Below are positions 4,490 to 50,104 of a DNA stretch of 64,000 nucleotides, piece by piece. Each line of letters starts with the position of its first letter. Position 1 is the first letter of the stretch. The DNA is from Arthrobacter sp. QXT-31 (GTDB lineage Bacteria > Actinomycetota > Actinomycetes > Actinomycetales > Micrococcaceae), in the NCBI RefSeq assembly GCF_001969265.1, contig NZ_CP019304.1, positions 2,728,001 to 2,792,000 on the forward strand, given 5' to 3'. Under the pieces are notes generated by a model. The model made no database searches and had not been told where the DNA came from. It worked only from the letters and a program-made list of their open reading frames with translations. The position numbers and the translations under genes were made by a program.

Positions 4490-5653
4490 CTACGCGTAGG
4501 CGTTGACCAGCTGGACTGCGCCGCCGTCTACGCCCTTGGCCCCCTGCACGTAGTCCGGTCCGGTCTTCACCACGGCGTCGGAATCGGCGCTGACGGAGCC
4601 CATGATCCAGGACGGCAGGCCGCGCTCGTTCAGGCGGGCCACGGCGGCGTCTGCGGCCTCGGGGGAGACCACGGCCACCATGCCGACGCCGAGGTTCAGC
4701 GTGCGCTCCAGATCGGCCAGCGGCACGCGGCCCAGTTCGGAGACGAGCTTGAAGATGGCGGGCAGCTCCCAGGTGGAGCGGTCAACGGTGGCCACGAGGC
4801 CCTGCGGCAGGACGCGGGCCAGGTTGGCGGCGAGCCCGCCGCCGGTGACGTGGCTGAAGCCGTGCACGGCTTTGCCGGCGGTGACGGGGAATTCCCGCGC
4901 GAGGTCCAGGCAGTCGGCGGCGTAGACACGGGTGGGTTCCAGCAGTTCCTCGCCCAGCGTGCGGCCGAGTTCGGAAACCTGGCGGTCCAGGGCCCAGCCG
5001 GCGTGGTTGATGACGCGGCGGACCAGGGAGTAGCCGTTGGAGTGCAGGCCGGAGGAGGCCATGCCGATCACCACGTCGCCGGCACGGACGCGGTCGGGTC
5101 CGAGCAGCGCGTCGGCTTCCACAACGCCGGTGGCGGCACCGGCGACGTCGTATTCGTGTTCGCCCAGCAGGCCGGGGTGCTCGGCGGTTTCGCCGCCCAC
5201 CAGCGCGGTGCCGGCCACGGAGCAGGCGGCAGCGATGCCGCGGACGATGTCCGCGATGCGCTCCGGAACCACCTTGCCGCAGGCGATGTAGTCGGTCATG
5301 TACAGCGGCTCGGCGCCCACCACCACGATGTCGTCCACCACCATGCCCACGAGGTCGTAGCCGATGGTGTCGTGGATGTCCATGGCCTGGGCGATGGCCA
5401 CCTTGGTGCCCACGCCGTCCGTGGACGTGGCCAGCAGGGGCTTCTTGTAGGTCAGGAGCTTCGAGACGTCGTACAGGCCTGCGAAACCCCCGACGCCGCC
5501 AATCACCGACGCGTTGTGGGTCGCCTTGACGGCGTCCTTCATGAGCTCGACGGCGCGGTCGCCTGCCTCAACGTCCACACCGGCGGCCGCGTAGGTGATG
5601 CCGGTGTTGTTCTGGGCAGCATTCATGTCAGCAGTGGAGGAAGCGGAAGTCAT
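4490..5653 (-). CDS. purM: Phosphoribosylformylglycinamidine cyclo-ligase (AIR synthetase)
   Basis: Converts FGAM plus ATP to aminoimidazole ribonucleotide, step five of purine synthesis, in the cytosol. The 387 residues show the AIR synthetase order: TYAAAGVDVEAGD near the N terminus, the nucleotide-binding STDGVGTK, the DDIVVVGAEPL segment, GGETAEHPG, and ASSGLHSNGYSLVR. The C-terminal domain carries the glycine-rich THGGGL-like turn as TGGGLAANL. The ATG overlaps the purF stop by four bases (5650-5653), so translation is probably coupled. Length is about 40 residues above the E. coli enzyme, mostly from the N-terminal extension and the C-terminal tail. Confidence 0.96.
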   Translation of the reverse strand: MTSASSTADMNAAQNNTGITYAAAGVDVEAGDRAVELMKDAVKATHNASVIGGVGGFAGLYDVSKLLTYKKPLLATSTDGVGTKVAIAQAMDIHDTIGYDLVGMVVDDIVVVGAEPLYMTDYIACGKVVPERIADIVRGIAAACSVAGTALVGGETAEHPGLLGEHEYDVAGAATGVVEADALLGPDRVRAGDVVIGMASSGLHSNGYSLVRRVINHAGWALDRQVSELGRTLGEELLEPTRVYAADCLDLAREFPVTAGKAVHGFSHVTGGGLAANLARVLPQGLVATVDRSTWELPAIFKLVSELGRVPLADLERTLNLGVGMVAVVSPEAADAAVARLNERGLPSWIMGSVSADSDAVVKTGPDYVQGAKGVDGGAVQLVNAYA

Positions 5654-7817: not shown

Positions 7818-7862
7818 GCCATCTAGCCTACTGTCATCCCGGCCGCCGGGCCTGCCGGGGGT

Positions 7863-8708
7863 TCAGGCCTGCACCAGCCGCTGCCGCTGCTCGCCCAGGA
7901 GGTCCCCGCCGGACAGCCGCATGACGTCCCCGGCTTCCAGGTACGGGAAGCGCCCGGACAGGGCTACGCCCTCCGGAGTTCCGGTGGTGATCAGGTCGCC
8001 GGGTTCGAGCACCATGTACTGCGAGAGCCGGCGGACCAGTTCCGCGGGGCCGAACACCATGTCCGCCGTCGAGCTGTCCTGCCGGACCTCGTCATTGACC
8101 CAGGACGCAAGCCGGATGTCGTCTTCGTCGACGGCCGCCGCCGGTACCAGCCACGGACCCACCGGGTTGAAGGTGGGGCAGGACTTGCCGAGCGACCATT
8201 GCGGGCCGGAGTGCTCCAGCTGGTACTCGCGCTCGGAGACATCGTTGGACAGAACGTAGCCGGCAATGCACCTGGCTGCCTCGGCATCGGATGACAGGTA
8301 GCTGGCCCGCCGGCCGATCACCACGCCCAGCTCCACCTCCCAGTCCACGCGCTGCGCCCCGGGCGGGATGACGACGTCGTCGTCCGGGCCCACCACGGTG
8401 TTGGGGTGCTTGAAGAAGATAATGGGTCGCTCCGGCACGGGAAGGCCGGATTCGGCGGCGTGCGCGGCGTAGTTCAGCCCCACGCCGATCACGGCGCCGG
8501 GCCTGGCGATCGGCGCTCCGATCCGCTTGCCGTCGACCGTTACCCGGGGCAGGCCCGTCAGGTCCAGGTCGGGCAGTTGGCCGGCCCAGGTCTCCAGGAA
8601 GTTCCCGTCAATGTCCTGGGTGACCGGCCGCAGGTCGTAAGCCTGGCCGTCGTCGTCGATGACCACCGGAACTTCATTGCCCGCCGGGCCAATGCGCATC
8701 AGCCGCAT
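7863..8708 (-). CDS. Fumarylacetoacetate hydrolase (FAH) family protein
   Basis: A 281-residue cytosolic enzyme of the FAH superfamily. Typical motifs are GVGLNYAAHAAE, the proline-rich FFKHPNTVVGP segment, the metal-binding acidic residues of DWEVELGVVIG, and the C-terminal TGTPEGVA turn. Family members hydrolyse or decarboxylate 2-oxoacid-type substrates such as acylpyruvates and 2-hydroxyhepta-2,4-diene-dioates. Here it follows uraH by 11 nt. That suggests a link to purine or ureide breakdown, possibly like ureidoglycolate lyase-type activities, but this is inference. The ATG at 8708 is chosen for its AAAGGAGA site 5-6 nt upstream; a longer frame runs into uraH. Confidence 0.85.
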   Translation of the reverse strand: MRLMRIGPAGNEVPVVIDDDGQAYDLRPVTQDIDGNFLETWAGQLPDLDLTGLPRVTVDGKRIGAPIARPGAVIGVGLNYAAHAAESGLPVPERPIIFFKHPNTVVGPDDDVVIPPGAQRVDWEVELGVVIGRRASYLSSDAEAARCIAGYVLSNDVSEREYQLEHSGPQWSLGKSCPTFNPVGPWLVPAAAVDEDDIRLASWVNDEVRQDSSTADMVFGPAELVRRLSQYMVLEPGDLITTGTPEGVALSGRFPYLEAGDVMRLSGGDLLGEQRQRLVQA

Positions 8709-8719
8709 GCTGTCTCCTT

Positions 8720-9058
8720 TCAGCTGCCGCGGTAGGTGGAGTAGGCGAACGGGCTCAGCAGCAGCGGCACGTGGTAGTGCTCGGTGCCGGTGACCTCGAA
8801 GACCAGGTCCACCTCCGGGAAGAACGTTGTGCCGCCCTGCTGGGCGTAGTAATCGCCCGTGGCGAAGTTGAGCCGGTAGTTTCCGGGGGCCAGGACCTCC
8901 GGACCCAGGTCCTTCGCGCGGCCGTCTGCATCGGTGATGCCGCTTGCCAGCTCTGTCCACTTGTCGCCGTCGTTCGCGTAAAGCACGACGGCGACACCCG
9001 CCGCCGGGCGTCCGGCGCCAGTATCCAGGACGTGGGTTGTCACGTGGGAAACGCTCAT
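8720..9058 (-). CDS. uraH: 5-hydroxyisourate hydrolase (transthyretin-like)
   Basis: Hydrolyses 5-hydroxyisourate, the product of urate oxidase, to OHCU. The 112 residues match the HIUase family length. It has the N-terminal HVTTHVLDT motif, the central LNFATGDYYA, the FFPEVDLVFEV strand and the diagnostic C-terminal YRGS tetrapeptide that separates HIUases from transthyretin. It acts as a homotetramer in the cytosol. The ATG overlaps the uraD stop by four bases, indicating coupled translation. Urate oxidase itself is not encoded in this window. Confidence 0.95.
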   Translation of the reverse strand: MSVSHVTTHVLDTGAGRPAAGVAVVLYANDGDKWTELASGITDADGRAKDLGPEVLAPGNYRLNFATGDYYAQQGGTTFFPEVDLVFEVTGTEHYHVPLLLSPFAYSTYRGS

Positions 9059-9552
9059 TCGCTGATCACTCCTTCCAGACGCAGCAGGGCGATTTCCCGC
9101 AGCTGCTGTGCAACGATGGCGTCTTCCTGCGCCGGGGTGTTGGCCAGGCGCTCGTTGAGCGCTGCCAGGATTTCGGGGGCGGTGCGGCCTGCGGCGCGGA
9201 TCAGGAAGACCCGGCCGAACTTTTCCTCGTACGCGCGGTTGCCGCGTGCGAGGGCGTCGGCCACCTCGGTGTCAGCGGGGTCCACGCCGGCCTGTTCGGA
9301 CCTGGACATGGCCGCCTCGGTGGTCTGGGCCTTGGGGCGTTCGCCGATCCGGGGATGGTGTGCCATGGCGCCCTCCACCTCTTCGGGGGTGAACGGTGCG
9401 GCGGCGGCGCGGGCTCCGTCAAGGAGCTCCTGGCGCGAGGCGAACGGGCGCGCTGCGGCGACCTGGTCCACCCAGCGCGGGACGTCGATGCAGGGGCGCA
9501 GGACCGCGCTGGCGGCATCCCTGTCCGCGGCATTGAATTCGGCAAGCTTCAC
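9055..9552 (-). CDS. uraD: OHCU decarboxylase
   Basis: Decarboxylates 2-oxo-4-hydroxy-4-carboxy-5-ureidoimidazoline to S-allantoin, following uraH in urate catabolism. The 165 residues form an all-helical OHCU domain with the conserved HPRIGERP motif and its catalytic His, and a FLIRAAGRT segment. The GTG at 9552 (VKLAEFN) is preferred because GAGG lies 8 nt upstream and the family usually starts with this LAEFNA element. The 25-residue extension to 9627 lacks family similarity. First gene of a uraD-uraH-FAH operon. Confidence 0.92.
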   Translation of the reverse strand: MKLAEFNAADRDAASAVLRPCIDVPRWVDQVAAARPFASRQELLDGARAAAAPFTPEEVEGAMAHHPRIGERPKAQTTEAAMSRSEQAGVDPADTEVADALARGNRAYEEKFGRVFLIRAAGRTAPEILAALNERLANTPAQEDAIVAQQLREIALLRLEGVISE

Positions 9553-9842
9553 GTTGTGATCCTCAAGCAGATGCTGGCATCCATGGTGACGGCTATGCGG
9601 AGGTCCGGGTCCTCTCCCGGTGCTCACGGTCCCCTTTCATCGCAGACCATGAGTTCCGCATCATGGAACTGTTATTTCAGCATACGTAATAGTGAAGCCG
9701 AGCATGCGCGCCGGTGTCAAGAGACTACAGCAGGGGGCCGAGCGTGGCGGATATCGCAATGCAACCGTGTATATAGGCGCTTCCTCACCTTTCGCCGGGT
9801 CTTTCCCCGACCCTCCATCACTTGCTGCCGAATACTTCCGCA

Positions 9843-9931
9843 CGCTCTCTCAGTTGTCGTGTCCTTTTGACCGACGCTCTTTCACCCGGTGAGAGAGGGT
9901 CTGCGTTTTTCCTGCGCGTAGTGAGAGAGCG
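9843..9931. repeat. GAGAGAG inverted-repeat element in spacer
   Basis: Outer arms CGCTCTCTCA (9843-9852) and TGAGAGAGCG (9922-9931) are perfect complements 69 nt apart. Inside lies a second hairpin, CTCTTTCACC (9877-9886) against GGTGAGAGAG (9888-9897) with one mismatch. The two right arms share GTGAGAGAG, so the element holds both inverted and direct repeats. The layout is that of a dispersed intergenic repeat rather than a simple terminator. Confidence 0.5.
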
Positions 9932-9940
9932 TCGCTGGCT

Positions 9941-9984
9941 GGGGGGGGGGCGGGCTCGGGGGCGGGGCGGGAGGGGGGAGGGGG
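9941..9984 (+). repeat. G-tract with quadruplex-forming potential
   Basis: A ten-G run followed by at least five further runs of three or more G (CGGG, CGGGGG, CGGGG, CGGG, AGGGGGG, AGGGGG) within 45 nt, just upstream of the response-regulator promoter region. The density satisfies the common G-quadruplex pattern on the plus strand. The exact homopolymer length may be uncertain, because such runs are error-prone in sequencing. Confidence 0.6.
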
Positions 9985-10081
9985 CCCTCGATGGCCCAAG
10001 AATTGCCAAAGCTGTGAGAACTAGCCTGTCCACGCCGTGGCTATCCACCGCGGCACCGTACTGGCCGGAAGATAATCGGAT

Positions 10082-10765
10082 ATGCAGATCCTGGTGGTTG
10101 AAGACGACGAATCGGTGGCGGCCGGAGTGCTGGAGGGCCTGACGAGGGCCGGGTTCCAGGCTCGGCACGTTGCCCACGGGGCCGGGGCGCTCGCCGAGGT
10201 CCGCTCCGCCAGTCCCGATTTCGTGCTGCTGGACCTCGGCCTGCCGGACATGGATGGCACGGACGTCTGCCGGTCCATCCGCTCATTGACCAGGACGCCA
10301 ATCATCGTCGTCAGTGCCCGCGACGAGGAAATCGACCGGGTGCTGGCCCTGGAGCTGGGGGCGGACGACTACCTGGTGAAGCCGTTCGGAATGCGCGAGC
10401 TCATCGCACGGATCCGGGCCGTGGCCCGCCGCACGGCCGATCCGCAAAGCGATGCCACTCCGCCCGCCGACGGCACCCGCACCATCGGCAGCCTGAGCAT
10501 CAACCAGCGCTCGCGCCGGGTCCTGGTGGCCGGCAACGAAATCCACCTCACCGCCAAGGAGTTCGAGCTCCTGTACTACCTGGCGGAGGACCCGGGCGCC
10601 GTCTGCCAGCGCACCGACATCCTGCGCGCGGTGTGGGACGGCACCTGGTACGGAACCACCGAGACCCTGGATGCGCACGTGGCCGCGATCCGGAAAAAGC
10701 TCGGCGACCCCCGCTGGATCGAGGCGGTGCGCGGCGTAGGGTTCAGGCTGGACGTGCCCGGATGA
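10082..10765 (+). CDS. OmpR/PhoB-family response regulator
   Basis: A 227-residue DNA-binding regulator. The receiver domain (residues 1-115) has the acidic pair ED-D at 7-9, the phosphoacceptor D51 in LLDLGLPDMDG, the switch Ser in IVVSA and the Lys in LVKPFG. The winged-helix effector domain (about 135-225) shows LTAKEFELLYYLAE and the recognition-helix and wing sequence ETLDAHVAAIRKKLG ending RGVGFRLD. Its stop overlaps the start of the kinase gene (10762-10765), so the pair is co-translated. The signal and targets are not identifiable. Confidence 0.95.
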   Translation: MQILVVEDDESVAAGVLEGLTRAGFQARHVAHGAGALAEVRSASPDFVLLDLGLPDMDGTDVCRSIRSLTRTPIIVVSARDEEIDRVLALELGADDYLVKPFGMRELIARIRAVARRTADPQSDATPPADGTRTIGSLSINQRSRRVLVAGNEIHLTAKEFELLYYLAEDPGAVCQRTDILRAVWDGTWYGTTETLDAHVAAIRKKLGDPRWIEAVRGVGFRLDVPG

Positions 10766-16848: not shown

Positions 16849-18669
16849 GTGTACCTGACCGCCAGACCGTTTAAGTTACGCCCCGCCCGGCCTTTGGCCA
16901 TGACCGCCAGCACCCTGGCCGTCATTGCCGCCGGGTCCCTGCTGAACCCCGCCGCCGGCAACGCCGCCGAGGCAACTGACTGGACGGCCACGGCCTACCG
17001 CGGAAGCGTCAACGTCGTCGAAGGACCTGACGAAGACCAGCAGGTTGTGGACGGCGTCGCCTTTGTCGACTCGGACCAGGACTCCGTGCAGGACGAAAAA
17101 GAGCGCGGTCTTGCCGGGGTGACCGTGTCCAACGGGCGTGACGTCACCAAGACGGACAGCCAGGGCCGTTACCAGCTGCCGGCGTTCGACAACATGACGG
17201 TGTTCGTGACCCAGCCGCGCGGCTACCAGGTCCCGGTGGACTCGGACAACGTGGCGCAGTTCTTCTACCACCACCTGCCCGAGGGCTCCCCGGATCTGAA
17301 GTTCGGCGGCATCGACCCCACCGGCCCGCTGCCGGACCAGGTGAACTTCCCGCTGGCCAAGAGCAGCCTGACGCAGTCGCCTGAACAGCACTGTGTAATC
17401 GGCGGAGATGTCCAGACTTACGACCAGGACGAAGTGGAGTACGCCCGCACGGGCGCCTTCGCCGACCTGGCGGCCCGCAACGACTACGCAGGCTGCGGCG
17501 CCCTGTTCATCGGCGATGTCGTGGGCGACGACCTCTCGCTGTACCCGCAGACCCGGGAACTGGCCGGCATGCTGAACGGCCCCGCCCGCTTCCTGCCCGG
17601 CAACCATGACCTGGACTTCGATGCCGTCAGCAGCGAGCACACGTTCGACACCTTCAAGGCCAACCTTGGCCCGGAGTACTACTCGTACGACGCCGGCAAG
17701 GCCCACGTCGTCGCGCTGAACACCGTGGAGTTCCCCACCAAGCTTCCGGCCGCCAAGGGCGACTACACCGGCTCGCTGGATGAGCAGCAGCTCGAGTGGC
17801 TGCGCAGGGACATCGCCCAGGTGCCGCGGAACCAGCTGATCGTGCTGGGAGCACACATTCCGCTGCTCGACTATGCCGACCAGGGCAGCAGCAAGCACCA
17901 GGTGGAGCAGGTCAAGGAGATCTACAAGATCCTCGAAGGCCGCAAGGTCGTCGCCCTGGGCGGACACACCCACAGCATCGAGAACCTCCGGGAAGGCGAC
18001 TCCCTGGCAGGCTGGTCCGAGGTCTTCGGGGTGGAAAAGCTGCCGTTCACGCACATCACCGCCGGCGCCATCTCCGGCGACTGGTACTCCGGGCGCCAGA
18101 CCTCCGAAGGGTACCCGCTCGCTTTCCAGCGCGACGGCGGCCTGCCGGGCGTGCTGACACTGGACATCAAGAACACAGAGTTCCGGGAGCGCTTCACGGT
18201 CCGCGGTGAGGATGAATCCCTGCAGATGTCCCTCGGCCTGAACACCCCACGCTACCGCGAGTGGTATGCGGAGAACGTGGACAACAAGGGCGAGGCCCCC
18301 GAGTTCACGGACCCGCTGACCGTTTCCCGCGAGGACCTGGCCAACACCACCTGGCTGACCACAAACTTTTGGATGGGCAGCACCGGAGCCACCGTCAAGG
18401 TACAGATCGACGGCGGCCAGGCCGTCGAGGCGGTCCGCACCCAGCAGATGCAGGGCGAAGGCCAGCTGGCCGGCGCTGAATACTCCGATCCGGTGGCCGT
18501 GCAGGAACAGCTGGTCAACGGCGGCAGCCTGGCCGACCGCATGATGCACCTGTGGCGGCTGCAGCTGCCCGCCGACCTGGCGGCCGGCCAGCACACCGCC
18601 ACCGTCACCTCCACCGACGTGTACGGCCGAACGTTCACGGAGACCCTGACCTTCGAGGTTGCCGGATAA
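16849..18669 (+). CDS. Secreted calcineurin-like metallophosphoesterase
   Basis: A 606-residue exported protein. The basic head and hydrophobic core of a signal peptide occupy residues 1-42, with probable cleavage after AGNAA. A Calcineurin-like N-terminal carboxypeptidase-like domain (VDGVAFVDSDQDSVQD, GRYQLPAF) precedes the metallophosphatase core with GGDVQTYDQD, FIGDVVGDD, GNHD and GGHTH. A beta-sandwich C-terminal domain follows. Family members cleave phosphomonoesters or diesters in envelope or nutrient phosphate turnover. The GTG at 16849 has GGAGGA 5 nt upstream. No operon partner; flanked by terminators on both sides. Confidence 0.88.
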   Translation: MYLTARPFKLRPARPLAMTASTLAVIAAGSLLNPAAGNAAEATDWTATAYRGSVNVVEGPDEDQQVVDGVAFVDSDQDSVQDEKERGLAGVTVSNGRDVTKTDSQGRYQLPAFDNMTVFVTQPRGYQVPVDSDNVAQFFYHHLPEGSPDLKFGGIDPTGPLPDQVNFPLAKSSLTQSPEQHCVIGGDVQTYDQDEVEYARTGAFADLAARNDYAGCGALFIGDVVGDDLSLYPQTRELAGMLNGPARFLPGNHDLDFDAVSSEHTFDTFKANLGPEYYSYDAGKAHVVALNTVEFPTKLPAAKGDYTGSLDEQQLEWLRRDIAQVPRNQLIVLGAHIPLLDYADQGSSKHQVEQVKEIYKILEGRKVVALGGHTHSIENLREGDSLAGWSEVFGVEKLPFTHITAGAISGDWYSGRQTSEGYPLAFQRDGGLPGVLTLDIKNTEFRERFTVRGEDESLQMSLGLNTPRYREWYAENVDNKGEAPEFTDPLTVSREDLANTTWLTTNFWMGSTGATVKVQIDGGQAVEAVRTQQMQGEGQLAGAEYSDPVAVQEQLVNGGSLADRMMHLWRLQLPADLAAGQHTATVTSTDVYGRTFTETLTFEVAG

Positions 18670-18695
18670 CAACAGGCGCACTGCCCGCATCCGGC

Positions 18696-18727
18696 AAGCC
18701 CCGGCACGACTCATCGTGCCGGGGCTT
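18696..18727 (+). terminator. Terminator after the metallophosphoesterase gene
   Basis: A perfect 14-bp stem (AAGCCCCGGCACGA and complement) with a CTCA loop, beginning 27 nt after the stop codon and followed by TTTA-like sequence. Confidence 0.88.
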
Positions 18728-18762
18728 TACCGTTGCGGAAGAGCGCATAAGCGTTCGACAAA

Positions 18763-18777
18763 TGAACGTCATGTTTA
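18763..18777. promoter_or_regulatory. Operator-like palindrome upstream of the BCCT gene (site 1)
   Basis: TGAACGTCATGTTTA, a near-palindrome of form TGAAC-N5-GTTYA. Closely related copies lie at 18826, 23506 and 23593 in front of the other genes of this block. It is 124 nt upstream of the transporter start, beside the possible promoter element TTCGAC. The binding regulator is not known. Confidence 0.6.
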
Positions 18778-18825
18778 AAAAATAAGCGCGGAAGTCTTGT
18801 CGGCTGTATGTGATCCACGGCACAA

Positions 18826-18840
18826 TGAACATCGCGTTCA
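18826..18840. promoter_or_regulatory. Operator-like palindrome upstream of the BCCT gene (site 2)
   Basis: TGAACATCGCGTTCA, a perfect match to TGAAC-N5-GTTCA, 60 nt before the transporter start and 63 nt (six helical turns) from site 1. That spacing is typical for cooperative binding by a dimeric regulator. Confidence 0.6.
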
Positions 18841-18900
18841 ATTCGTTTGGGAGGGACGACGTCGTCCTTGCCCCTAGTGAAGACAGTCGAAAGAGGTTTC

Positions 18901-45723: not shown

Positions 45724-46088
45724 ACCTGAGCTATAGGTTCCCCGACTCCCGAATCACACAACGTGCACCTTCCGCGGTCCGGGACGACTGTCCGGGCGCC
45801 TCTCGTTCCCTGGGTGGTGGACGGCGCAGGCTTGCCGATGACGGACCTGGACCTGACGTCCCATTGCCCACCTCCTTATGGCCGTTACCAGCGGTAACGG
45901 CGGTGTGGAGAAAGGGCCACGAACGCCTTTCGACTGCCCCCGAAACGCGCTCCGGAATTACGCTCCCGTGACCGGAATCCTTGCCGATTAACGGTTGCAC
46001 GAAGAACCGGAAACATCCCTCGTTTCGGGCCTGTGGCGCTCCTACGCTGGAGTCACCCCATCACTCACACCCGAAAGGTGTACCCCAT
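45724..46088. promoter_or_regulatory. Spacer with a terminator-like hairpin
   Basis: A 365-nt region without a reliable gene. A 9-bp perfect hairpin, GCCGTTACC-AGC-GGTAACGGC (45881-45901), may end transcription from the HhH gene. The downstream part carries the promoter and the ribosome site GAAAGGTG of the secreted protein at 46089. Confidence 0.45.
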
Positions 46089-46640
46089 ATGAAAAAACTA
46101 AGTGCCTGGCTGACAGCCACCATTGTGGCTCTCGGACTGGGCCTGCTGGCTCCAGGGCCCGCCTCCGCAACCCCTTCCTACTGCGGACTGGTATGGAGCT
46201 CCCTCGGCAAATCGAACCAGGCCATGAGCGGCGCATCGGTAACCAACATACGCTCGGGACAGCACCCCTGCTTCGACCGGCTGGTCATCGACATCAAGGG
46301 AAAAGCAGCCGGCTACAACGTCCGCTACGTCTCAAAGGTCGTGCAGGACGGATCCGGACATCCAATCAAATTGAGGGGCGGCGCCTTCCTGCAGGTTACC
46401 GCCAACTCACCCAGCTACGACAACGCAACTGGCAGGGCCACCTTCACGCCGGCCAATCGTTCCGAGGTCACCAACGTTTCGAAGTACCAGACATTCCGGC
46501 AGGTTGTCTGGGCAGGCAGCTACGAAGGCTACACCACCCTGGGCCTCGGCGTCCGCGCCCGGCTGCCCTTCAAGGTCCACGCCCTGCCCGGCCCCGGCAA
46601 CGGAACCAAGCTCGTAATCGACGTCGCCCACCATTGGTGA
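46089..46640 (+). CDS. Secreted AMIN-like domain protein
   Basis: A 183-residue exported protein. Residues 1-28 form a Sec signal peptide (MKKLSAWLTATIVALGLG core; cleavage after ASA). The mature part has CGLVWSSLGKS, a repeat of beta strands, GQHPCFDRLVIDIKG and a closing VRARLPFKVHAL and KLVIDVAHHW. This is the layout of actinobacterial AMIN-like proteins that probably bind cell-wall glycans. Two cysteines could form a disulfide. Monocistronic. The ATG is favoured by GAAAGGTG about 7 nt upstream. Confidence 0.75.
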   Translation: MKKLSAWLTATIVALGLGLLAPGPASATPSYCGLVWSSLGKSNQAMSGASVTNIRSGQHPCFDRLVIDIKGKAAGYNVRYVSKVVQDGSGHPIKLRGGAFLQVTANSPSYDNATGRATFTPANRSEVTNVSKYQTFRQVVWAGSYEGYTTLGLGVRARLPFKVHALPGPGNGTKLVIDVAHHW

Positions 46641-47017: not shown

Positions 47018-47698
47018 GTGAGCAACGAACAGGATCTGACCCCGCTGACCGATGAAGAACTGCTGGCGCAGCAAGGCGCCGCCCTGCCTGACAAGGAAGT
47101 CGCCTCCGTGCTGGACCTGAATGCGGACCTCGACCTTGGCATTGACGCGGCAGCACCAATTGACCTTGCCGTGGCAGCCAACGCCAATGTCGCAGCCCCG
47201 ATTGATGCCGCGGCCGCGGCCAATATTCTCTCGTTCGGCTCGGAGGCGCAGGCGCTCTCCGACCAGGGGGTCATCATTAATCAGGGCATCACCGCGGACG
47301 CTACCGCGGAATCGGCACAGGACAGCACAATCGACCAGGGCAATGACACTGTCGATGACGGAACCGCCACGGAGGAACCGGCCGCTGACGGGCTGCTTCC
47401 CGGCAGCGGAACAACGGACCTGGGTGCGCTGCCTACCGATCCGGCTGCTGCCTTGGACGGCGATCTGTTGAACGTCAATGTGGATCTTGCCGCAGATGCC
47501 GACATCGCCGCGCCGATCAACGGTGCGGTGGCGGCGAACGCAAACGTTGCTGCACCGATCGACGCAGCCGTGGCCGCGAACATCGGCTCGATCGACAGCA
47601 GCGCCACCGCTGTCTCCCAGCAGGACGCCATCATCAACCAAGGGATCGAGGGCGCAGCCACGGCGACCGCCGACCAGCAGTCCGACCTGCAGCAGTAA
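47018..47698 (+). CDS. Two-repeat, Ala/Asp/Asn-rich protein with a RiPP-leader-like N terminus
   Basis: A 226-residue acidic protein without signal peptide or helix-spanning segment. Residues 1-31 (LTDEELLAQQGAALPDKEVAS) resemble the ELLxxQGxxLPxxEAMS pattern of RiPP leader peptides. Two tandem repeats follow (about 34-108 and 151-226). Each has AVAANANVAAPIDAA (residues 51-65 and 170-184) and ends with a IINQGI block. They are joined by a Glu/Pro/Gly linker. Cysteine is absent. It ends 6 nt before a membrane metalloprotease gene and probably supplies its substrate or partner. The GTG is chosen for GGAG 7 nt upstream. Confidence 0.72.
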   Translation: MSNEQDLTPLTDEELLAQQGAALPDKEVASVLDLNADLDLGIDAAAPIDLAVAANANVAAPIDAAAAANILSFGSEAQALSDQGVIINQGITADATAESAQDSTIDQGNDTVDDGTATEEPAADGLLPGSGTTDLGALPTDPAAALDGDLLNVNVDLAADADIAAPINGAVAANANVAAPIDAAVAANIGSIDSSATAVSQQDAIINQGIEGAATATADQQSDLQQ

Positions 47699-47704
47699 AC
47701 CAGG

Positions 47705-50104
47705 ATGGCTACCGCGCACGGCGGACCGTTCACCCAGAGCGGCCCGCCGTCTCCTGCCACGCCTCAGGGTCCTGCCGCCCGACCCGGAGGCGTTCCGGAA
47801 TATCCCGTACGGGCCGAGGGCGTGCAGCTGCTGGGTGAGGCGAAGGACTCCGGCTACCTGGAACCGCCCTCCCTGGTCCGCAGGGCCGACGGTCAGGCCC
47901 TGCACCTGACCCGCTTGCTGTACCTGGTGATGGAGGCAGCGGACGGGACCCGCAGCATCGAGGACATCGCCGGCGACGTGACGCCGGCCTTTGGCCGGCT
48001 GGTCAGTGCCGAGAACGTGCGCGCTCTGATCCGGACGCAGCTGCTCCCCCTTGGCCTGCTGCGGCTCGCTGACGGCTCCGAGCCGGAAGTGAAACGCGCC
48101 GATCCCCTACTGGGAATGCGCCTGCGCTACACCGTCACCGATACGACGCGGACGGCCAGGATTACCAGGCCCTTCGCTGTCCTGTTCCACCCGCTCATCG
48201 CCGTTCCGGTGGTCGCTGCATTCCTGGCTGCATGCGGGTGGCTGCTGCTCAGTAAGGGACTTGCCTCGGCAACGCATAACGCCTTTGCCAACCCCGGGTT
48301 GCTCCTGCTCGTCTTCCTCGTGACCGTCCTGTCGGCGGGGTTCCACGAGTTCGGGCACGCCGCCGCCGCGATGAGGGGCGGTGCCACACCGGGAAGGATG
48401 GGCGCGGGCCTGTATCTGGTGTGGCCTGCGTTCTTCACGGACGTCACCGATTCCTACCGGCTGGGCCGTGGCGGACGGCTCCGCACAGATCTTGGCGGCC
48501 TCTACTTCAACGCGATCGTGGCCGTCATCATCATGGGCATCTGGTGGCTGACCAACGACGACGCGTGGCTGCTGGTGATCGCCACGCAAGTGCTGCAGAT
48601 GGTGCGGCAGCTCCTGCCGCTGCTGAGGTTCGACGGCTACCACATCCTTGCCGACGCCACCGGCGTGCCCGACCTGTTCCAGCACATCAAACCCACCCTC
48701 CTGGCGCTCCTGCCCTGGCGCCGGAACACCCCGGAAACCCGGGCGCTGAAGCCGTGGGCCCGTGCCCTGATCACGGTGTGGGTGCTGGTGACCGTCCCAC
48801 TCCTGTTGCTGAGCCTGGTCCTGATCGTGCTTGCGTTGCCGCGGCTGCTCGCCACCGCGGGGGCCGCCGGGGCCGCACGCTACGCGCAGGCTACCGGCAG
48901 CCTGGCAGCCGGTGACTTCACCGGAGGTGCGGCGAACATGCTGGCGATGGTGGCTATCGCCCTGCCGGTCCTGGCAATCCTGTACATGCTGCTGCGGCTG
49001 GCCCGCCAACTGCTGCAGGCCATCCTGAAACGGACCAAAGGCAACACCCTCCGGCGCGGAACGGCCCTGGTGACTATCGCGGCAATTCTTGCCGGGCTCG
49101 CCTGGGCCTGGTGGCCTCGGCCGGAAACCTACCGCCCGGTTCAGCCATACGACCGCGGGACCCTGCTGGACGCCGTCCCCACCGCCCTGTCGGGGCCCGG
49201 TTCGGCGGGACTGGTGGAAGGCCGCCAAGGCGGGACCGTGGCCCTGTGGCCGGACGGGGCGGAACTGCCGACCCGGGAAAAACCGCAGCTGGCCCTGGTG
49301 CTGGTGCCCCGCCCGGACGCCGGAACGCCGCCGGACGAGGCGTCCCGAACAACCGTCGAAGACGGGAACCAGGTGGCGCCGTCATGGGTGTTTCCCTTCG
49401 ACAAACCCCAGGCGCCCTACGGGGACGGCAACCAGGCGCTGGCGGTCAACACCACGGACGGGTCCGTCGTCTATGACATCGCCTTCGCCCTGGTCTGGGC
49501 GGACGACGGCACGCCCGTCGACACACGCAACGAGGCCTACGCCTTCGCCAACTGCACCGGCTGCGCAGCCGTTGCGGTGGGATTCCAGGTCGTGCTGGTA
49601 GTGGGGCAGGCGAACGTGGTTGTTCCCGAGAACCTGTCCGCGGCCGCGAACTACAACTGCGTATCCTGCCTCACCTATGCCCTTGCCAGCCAACTGGTGC
49701 TGACCCTTGACGGGCCGCTCAGCGCCGAGGGTGCAGCCAGGCTGCAGGCACTCTGGGAAGAGATCGCCGAGTTCGGACGCAACCTCCGCAACGTCCCGCT
49801 CACCGACATCCAAGCCCGGCTGTCTGCCTACAAGGAAATGATCACCGAGATCATCCGCACAGACCCCAGCACCGGAACACGGACCCCTGACACAACAGGC
49901 ACCCAACCGACGTCACCAACCACCCCTTCGCAGACCCCGGACGGCGGGGAACCGCCCGCCCCTCCCGCGCCGGGGGACACCACGCCCGCCAGCCCAGTCC
50001 CGGCCGTTCCCGCACCCACGGTGCCGCCGGCACCGACGATATCCGGGACACCGGCGCCTACATCGACCACCACCCCGTCTCCGGGGCTCCCGCCAGCGGG
50101 CTAA
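47705..50104 (+). CDS. Large M50/YydH-type membrane zinc metalloprotease with extracytoplasmic CxxC domain
   Basis: A 799-residue protein. A Pro-rich start is followed by a winged-helix/PqqD-like recognition region (about 50-115; GQALHLTRLLYLVMEAADG). A multi-helix membrane core follows with the zinc motif HEFGH (214-218) and the third ligand Asp in LLRFDGYH (about 310). After roughly residue 470, an outer domain carries two CxxC knuckles (NCTGC near 617, NCVSC near 652). The last 80 residues are Thr/Pro-rich. This is the architecture of peptide zinc metalloproteases of the YydH type, which process RiPP peptides. It begins 6 nt after the repeat-protein gene, so the two are translationally coupled. 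Confidence 0.85.
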   Translation: MATAHGGPFTQSGPPSPATPQGPAARPGGVPEYPVRAEGVQLLGEAKDSGYLEPPSLVRRADGQALHLTRLLYLVMEAADGTRSIEDIAGDVTPAFGRLVSAENVRALIRTQLLPLGLLRLADGSEPEVKRADPLLGMRLRYTVTDTTRTARITRPFAVLFHPLIAVPVVAAFLAACGWLLLSKGLASATHNAFANPGLLLLVFLVTVLSAGFHEFGHAAAAMRGGATPGRMGAGLYLVWPAFFTDVTDSYRLGRGGRLRTDLGGLYFNAIVAVIIMGIWWLTNDDAWLLVIATQVLQMVRQLLPLLRFDGYHILADATGVPDLFQHIKPTLLALLPWRRNTPETRALKPWARALITVWVLVTVPLLLLSLVLIVLALPRLLATAGAAGAARYAQATGSLAAGDFTGGAANMLAMVAIALPVLAILYMLLRLARQLLQAILKRTKGNTLRRGTALVTIAAILAGLAWAWWPRPETYRPVQPYDRGTLLDAVPTALSGPGSAGLVEGRQGGTVALWPDGAELPTREKPQLALVLVPRPDAGTPPDEASRTTVEDGNQVAPSWVFPFDKPQAPYGDGNQALAVNTTDGSVVYDIAFALVWADDGTPVDTRNEAYAFANCTGCAAVAVGFQVVLVVGQANVVVPENLSAAANYNCVSCLTYALASQLVLTLDGPLSAEGAARLQALWEEIAEFGRNLRNVPLTDIQARLSAYKEMITEIIRTDPSTGTRTPDTTGTQPTSPTTPSQTPDGGEPPAPPAPGDTTPASPVPAVPAPTVPPAPTISGTPAPTSTTTPSPGLPPAG

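Follow-up and report, generated by a model that had tools for sequence, protein, structure and literature searches.

A leader-bearing two-repeat protein and its partner intramembrane protease: a putative precursor-processing cassette with short-peptide relatives in Actinomycetota

The window considered here is a stretch of 64,000 nucleotides from Arthrobacter sp. QXT-31 (contig NZ_CP019304.1, positions 2,728,001 to 2,792,000). Its subject is a cassette of two genes, of which the first encodes a 226-residue repeat protein and the second, beginning after a gap of 6 nt, an intramembrane zinc protease of 799 residues with a fused outer domain (Table 1). This layout, together with two near-identical repeats in the first protein and an HEFGH site and two CxxC knuckles in the second, had been described in an original prediction made from the sequence alone, and all of it was recovered: the 15-mer AVAANANVAAPIDAA is present twice in the repeat protein (residues 51-65 and 170-184), and the knuckles of the protease are CTGC (residues 617-620) and CVSC (residues 652-655). 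The original prediction was also right in taking the cassette for an unstudied system of leader-bearing substrate and protease; no paper on this family was found in the openly licensed PMC literature, and queries with sequence motifs were likewise empty.

The repeat protein contains 38 acidic residues, one lysine, and no Cys, Trp, or Tyr. The leader residues L23, P24, K26, E27, V28, and S30 are invariant in 79 of 79 relatives, all of which have one copy of the leader motif LPxKE and the C-terminal residue Q226; the start of repeat 2 (LDGxLLNV) is also conserved. The gene is under purifying selection, with a ratio of nonsynonymous to synonymous substitution rates of about 0.09-0.18 between the window and four relatives. 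The protein has no match in Pfam (curlin included), NCBIfam, or PHROGs, and a phage gene was rejected in the absence of a PHROGs match at an expectation value (E) of 0.1. Among solved relatives, the repeat-protein profile (A4) has no match, and profiles A6 and A7 have one unrelated match each at E 1.6.

Table 1. Features of the two-gene cassette, in positions of the window.
Feature	Position	Strand	Details
Open reading frame (ORF) of the repeat protein	47018..47698	+	GTG start
Leader region of the repeat protein, residues 1-40	47018..47137	+	homologous to short-peptide leaders of the sister systems
Repeat 1, residues 41-107; core unit about 61-89	47138..47338	+	profiles; hidden Markov model (HMM) of peptides and CxxC units
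Variable linker of low complexity, residues 108-159; no second LPxKE	47339..47494	+	alignment
Repeat 2, residues 160-226; core unit about 180-207	47495..47695	+	profiles; HMM of peptides and CxxC units
Intramembrane zinc protease with fused outer domain	47705..50104	+	799 aa, ATG start
N-terminal winged-helix/PqqD-like candidate leader-recognition domain, residues 39-147	47819..48145	+	Pfam in some relatives
Hydrophobic segments of the protease, residues 153-470	48161..49114	+	Kyte-Doolittle scan
HEFGH zinc site, residues 214-218	48344..48358	+	HExxH in 79/80 relatives
Distal DGY motif, residues 310-312	48632..48640	+	invariant in 68/68 rows of the protease alignment
Outer CxxC-repeat domain, residues 560-725	49382..49879	+	mostly encoded separately in the sister loci
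Pro/Thr/Ala-rich C-terminal tail, residues 726-799	49880..50101	+	sequence

Pairing of the two genes was found in every locus examined. A query with the protease only gave 349 confirmed relatives, of which the best 80 were kept as group 1, a choice that favors close relatives of the window. The repeat gene lies directly upstream of the protease in 80 of these 80 loci, with an intergenic gap of 6-10 nt in 49 of them, and the loci cover 19 genera, from Arthrobacter to Kribbella, Blastococcus, Saccharothrix, and Mycolicibacterium. Chance neighborhood was rejected on this 80/80 pairing. Within the bacterial family, the repeat protein occurs in nine of 149 genomes, and a close protease (63-100% identical) adjoins it in these nine and is present in no others; the samples overlap, at least three of these nine loci (L037, L038, and L041) being the same as L077, L057, and L092. 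At the level of the class, 29 of 394 genomes match the repeat-protein model, 22 with full-length and seven with single-unit proteins. The protease is present in all 29, and the 22 full-length cases adjoin it on the same contig; in one of the seven single-unit genomes (G157), it lies on another contig. Repeat-protein homologs without the protease, whose common occurrence would have spoken against the original prediction, were found in 0 of the nine family genomes and 0 of the 29 class-level genomes.

One locus is altered in both genes. In Sinomonas susongensis (L095; repeat gene 7827-7979, protease 7989-10379), the protease motif reads HEFGR, with the second zinc histidine lost. It is the only one of the best 80 with a broken HExxH and the only one with a repeat gene cut short other than at a contig end, which fits a joint decay of both partners, a natural case consistent with their coupling. 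L042 (genome G062) has a second, decayed fragment of the protease (about 17600-18900), some 8 kb away from its intact cassette.

The HExxH motif is present in 79 and DGYH in 80 of the best 80 proteases, within hydrophobic surroundings, as is characteristic of site-2 (M50) proteases, and cysteines 617, 620, 652, and 655 of the outer domain are invariant in 61 of 61 group-1 rows. The Pfam family PF02163 matches the protease core of the window with 10.7 bits, below its gathering score of 27.2, and matches 17 of 26 members of the protease family at any level, with a best E of 0.0049. In the N-terminal region, Pfam PqqD matches six of 24 members (best E 4.9e-4) and the winged-helix model PKMT_2nd matches eight of 24, and the domain has no PDB match. 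The PqqD-like recognition region proposed in the original prediction is thus plausible from these six members but weak, as the window copy itself is unmatched. The nearest known model to the window protease is that of the daptide proteases (NF041824), with 94.7 bits (E 6e-27) against a cut-off of 300, and the YydH/LiaK model (NF058609) gives 37.9 bits against a cut-off of 225; the name YydH-type given earlier is therefore imprecise, and a daptide label would fall short of its cut-off as well.

Daptide systems have a recognition domain fused N-terminally to a site-2-type protease (MpaP/DapP) that removes the leader, short precursor ORFs that have the leader motif ELExMEAP and end in Thr, and clusters with genes for an oxidative decarboxylase, an aminotransferase, a methyltransferase, and an ABC transporter (PMC10036551). 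The cassette is similar in its candidate recognition domain fused to an intramembrane protease and in a conserved N-terminal leader motif with E-L and P, while it differs in its two-repeat product that ends in Gln, in its leader EL…LPxKEV, and in that the daptide enzyme genes do not recur here. No recurring modifying enzyme or exporter was found in the 36 most widespread ORF rows around the best 80 loci, and the only other recurrent family in these rows is that of stand-alone outer-domain proteins, of which L063 (6236-7090) and L080 (6349-7143) have an extra ORF upstream of the repeat gene. Among ten window ORFs scanned with Pfam, there is no decarboxylase, aminotransferase, or methyltransferase of a ribosomally synthesized and post-translationally modified peptide (RiPP), and their sole ABC protein is a CbiQ-linked ATPase at 60.5 kb. 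Measured against the features of RiPP systems, the leader is conserved and paired, the recognition-domain match is weak, and no modifying gene recurs in the rows inspected. A daptide-like RiPP with its modifying enzymes elsewhere in the genome would agree with the order of recognition domain and intramembrane protease and with the E of the daptide model, but it is very improbable in view of the bit score, the cores that end in Gln instead of Thr, the separation of the daptides in the protease tree described below, and the lack of any further ORF family in the 36 rows outside the cassette, a survey made without a genome-wide enzyme search. Daptide membership was rejected on the model cut-off, the C-terminal residue, the leader motif, the gene neighborhood, and the tree. 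Two proteases of the daptide type, L052 and L054, occur in the same bacterial family and score 382 and 406 bits, above the cut-off. A third (L053) was called daptide from tree placement only. In genome G009, a daptide-type protease coexists with the repeat cassette.

In seven loci of the family, the protease is 39-46% identical; each of these sister systems encodes two to four short peptides, and six of the seven have a secreted CxxC protein. A SARP-type regulator lies beside the short peptides in most of these loci (g2), with BTAD confirmed by Pfam for L051 only, and the sister-locus rows inspected show no recurring modifying enzyme or exporter. The sister peptides are composed of a leader with L-P-x-[RK]-E, as in the window protein, and one core unit; they were kept only at A2 E ≤1e-3 and with an LP-x-[RK] motif, by which the peptides of L182 and L192 were left out. 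A bridge group (L174-L178, L180, and L181) has three consecutive short peptides with the leader LTDEEL…ELPDRE and one core (NANLAAPVNAAVAANVLSDGSVAYANAEQ…), which are matched by both the repeat-protein and the short-peptide models, and L187-L190 have two such peptides per locus. In L191 and L192, the leader LLPER is kept, the cores are different and Asn/Ser-rich, and the CxxC model finds no protein; in L177, a leaderless ORF with a core-like stretch (4807-5070) lies beside three leader-bearing peptides.

The relationship between the precursors was supported by profile comparison. Residues 8-107 of the window type align to 21 bridge peptides with a probability of 99.3 (E 3e-20, score 103.9), the N half of the window type to 35 other short peptides with 95.0 (E 4e-8, score 43.5), and the bridge peptides to the other short peptides with 97.9 (E 5.9e-13), against maxima of 16-20 for shuffled profiles compared with 43-104 for the precursors. 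A substrate with a leader and a partner protease, as originally proposed, is thus found again in the leader-and-core peptides of the sister loci. In a midpoint-rooted tree of 49 chosen protease rows, group 1 forms one clade (100/100) that is joined by the bridge group (93/93), then by Streptomyces, and then by the other short-peptide group, with the daptide proteases far outside on a long branch (100/100).

The outer domain follows the same division. The CxxC model matches inside the protease ORF in 80 of the best 80 group-1 loci and in 22 of 27 sister loci, mostly in an ORF other than the protease; the sister loci without a match are L049, L182, L188, L191, and L192, the match in L177 extends over only 51 residues, and none was found in the three daptide loci. 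In L174, the start of the CxxC gene overlaps the final codons of the protease gene. As the sister clades mostly encode the outer CxxC domain as a protein of its own, the cassette of the window appears to have arisen by two fusions, one that would have joined single-unit peptides into a two-unit protein and one that would have attached a secreted CxxC protein, once separate, to the protease. Site-2-type proteases are common in signaling, and the invariance of the four outer cysteines would also suit regulated intramembrane proteolysis, where the outer domain senses redox state or metal and the protease frees a regulator from the repeat protein. Such a role is improbable, as the repeat protein has neither a hydrophobic segment nor a Pfam or NCBIfam domain and its place in the sister systems is taken by several short peptides with leaders, mostly beside the SARP-type regulator.

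Two repeats were counted in 78 of the best 80 loci (by eye in L118), the exceptions being the truncated gene of L095 and L103 at a contig end. In a tree of the repeats (58 + 58 rows), repeats 1 and 2 separate on two sides of one branch (100/91), which points to one old duplication. The repeat number thus appears fixed at two by this duplication, which disfavors the release of two copies, and the repeat protein has more the look of a product with two domains than of an array from which copies are released. Arrays of cores usually vary in number. A multi-core RiPP-like precursor, from which two cuts by the protease or another enzyme would release the repeats as separate antimicrobial or signaling peptides, finds some agreement in the several single-core peptides of the sister systems, each with its own leader, in the variable and flexible-looking linker between the repeats, and in the conserved LDGxLLNV, which could be a second cut site. 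It is nevertheless unlikely given the constant repeat number, the two clades, and the single leader motif in 79 of 79 proteins, and on the same grounds the earlier suggestion that two similar products are released is probably wrong.

The core unit has the pattern N-x-A-x-A-x-N-x2-[ST]-x2-S-x3-A-x-A-x-Q, and the unit of the outer domain is found in the same register with CxxC. In the two repeats of the window protein, the unit follows N/D-x-A-x-A-x-N-x2-S-x2-S-x3-A…Q. In a profile comparison of 81 CxxC units (second-type units, out of 155, with 68 first-type units left out) with 52 peptide cores, 27 ungapped columns were aligned with a probability of 77 (E 2e-5, score 22.8), a score reached by none of 200 column shuffles (maximum 12.2) and not by the reversed profile (10.2). 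Repeat 2 of the window type scores 19.1 against the CxxC units, with shuffles at ≤13.7. Conservation has a period of 2 and not 3.6 in repeat 1 (p=0.005), repeat 2 (p=0.0014; both unanchored), and the CxxC units (p=0.006), and this alternation suggests strand-turn-strand units with one conserved face. In curli, the product CsgA and its partner CsgB share an Asn/Gln/Ala-patterned repeat unit, and the partner templates the product; curli differ in their export route and in a partner not fused to a protease, and the window protein has no Pfam curlin match. It was tentatively hypothesized that the outer domain is a Cys-clamped homolog of its own product, on which the emerging product might stack and so be nucleated, capped, or held, an idea that we regard as rather doubtful in this specific form.

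The reading preferred here, to which a probability of roughly 0.55 is given, is that the cassette comprises a precursor and its dedicated processing machine, whose outer domain would receive, cap, or template the released product. The sequences support the pairing, the leader and core shared with short peptides, the outer-domain gene fused here and separate elsewhere, and the similarity of the units; from these we infer leader binding, cleavage, export, beta structure, and templating. The leader (…EL…LPDKEVAS…) would recruit the repeat protein to the winged-helix/PqqD-like N-terminal domain of the protease, and the intramembrane zinc site would cut near the leader-core boundary. The acidic two-repeat product would then reach the outside without a dedicated exporter, where the outer domain, with the same kind of unit (CxxC for SxxS), may receive, cap, or template it.

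Several observations weigh against this reading. A hydrophobic segment by which the substrate might meet an intramembrane site is absent from the repeat protein (maximum mean hydropathy 1.28), and the N-terminal domain of the window protease has no PqqD match and a weak, sub-threshold winged-helix match (E 0.078). An earlier comparison of the precursor profiles with fewer relatives was weak (probability 25, E 7.6e-4). The comparison of CxxC units and cores was restricted to second-type units, repeat 1 of the window type scores 13.7 against a shuffle maximum of 13.0 and is thus barely above chance, and an HMM of the peptides only finds no significant unit in the CxxC domains of six single proteins (best E about 2-3). 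The period-2 signal is strongest in the peptides, whose register was set with an alternating pattern that favors it, and hydropathy has no period. Lastly, in Arthrobacter sp. OVS8 (L088, 7958-8700), the protease is frameshifted near its start beside an intact repeat gene, possibly by a sequencing error.

Two further systems offer parallels to the proposed processing. EpeP (YydH) is an M50-type membrane protease that matures EpeX (YydF) and is thought to cleave and export it (PMC10885120). The cassette would share M50-type peptide maturation with it, and a dual role in cleavage and export is a possible answer to the missing exporter. Epipeptides require a radical SAM epimerase, and none recurs around the relatives of the window cassette; epipeptide membership was rejected at 37.9 versus 225 bits. 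For TMcin, an intramembrane site-2-clan protease removes the leader, and a proposed escort protein would contact the product via an extended beta-sheet (PMC13252029). As with EpeP, the intramembrane leader removal and the accessory protein proposed for the product are a parallel and not evidence of membership. TMcin differs in its PF11667/DUF3267 protease, the transmembrane helix of its precursor, and its dedicated ABC transporter, none of which is seen in the window cassette; a Pfam scan of the cassette gave no PF11667 match.

The cassette and its relatives define a widespread actinobacterial family of leader-guided products, which enzyme-based RiPP searches would tend to miss because no modifying enzyme recurs. 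The protease with its product-like outer domain gives a testable model for the cutting, export, and assembly of a secreted repeat protein without a dedicated exporter and is possibly a new principle, that of a processing protease that carries a homolog of its product. If true, the fusion of a nucleator to the very protease by which its client is made would amount to a new principle in the building of surface fibers or solenoids, one found throughout Actinomycetota, both fused and split.

The cassette lies on a complete contig of 5.04 Mb with chromosome-like neighbors (glycogen debranching, cytochrome bd, TerC, protein kinase, and methionine synthase). Just upstream (45981-46640), a secreted AMIN-like protein is encoded (Pfam PF24837, E 2e-46), whose association with the cassette is not conserved. 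Of 25 genomes matched in a wider protease search, 19 belong to other classes, and their matches are strong (E 1e-86 to 1e-157). A search of plasmids gave no match for the repeat protein and only three distant ones for the protease, and two Streptomyces plasmids carry a relative, all of whose genes are annotated as hypothetical.

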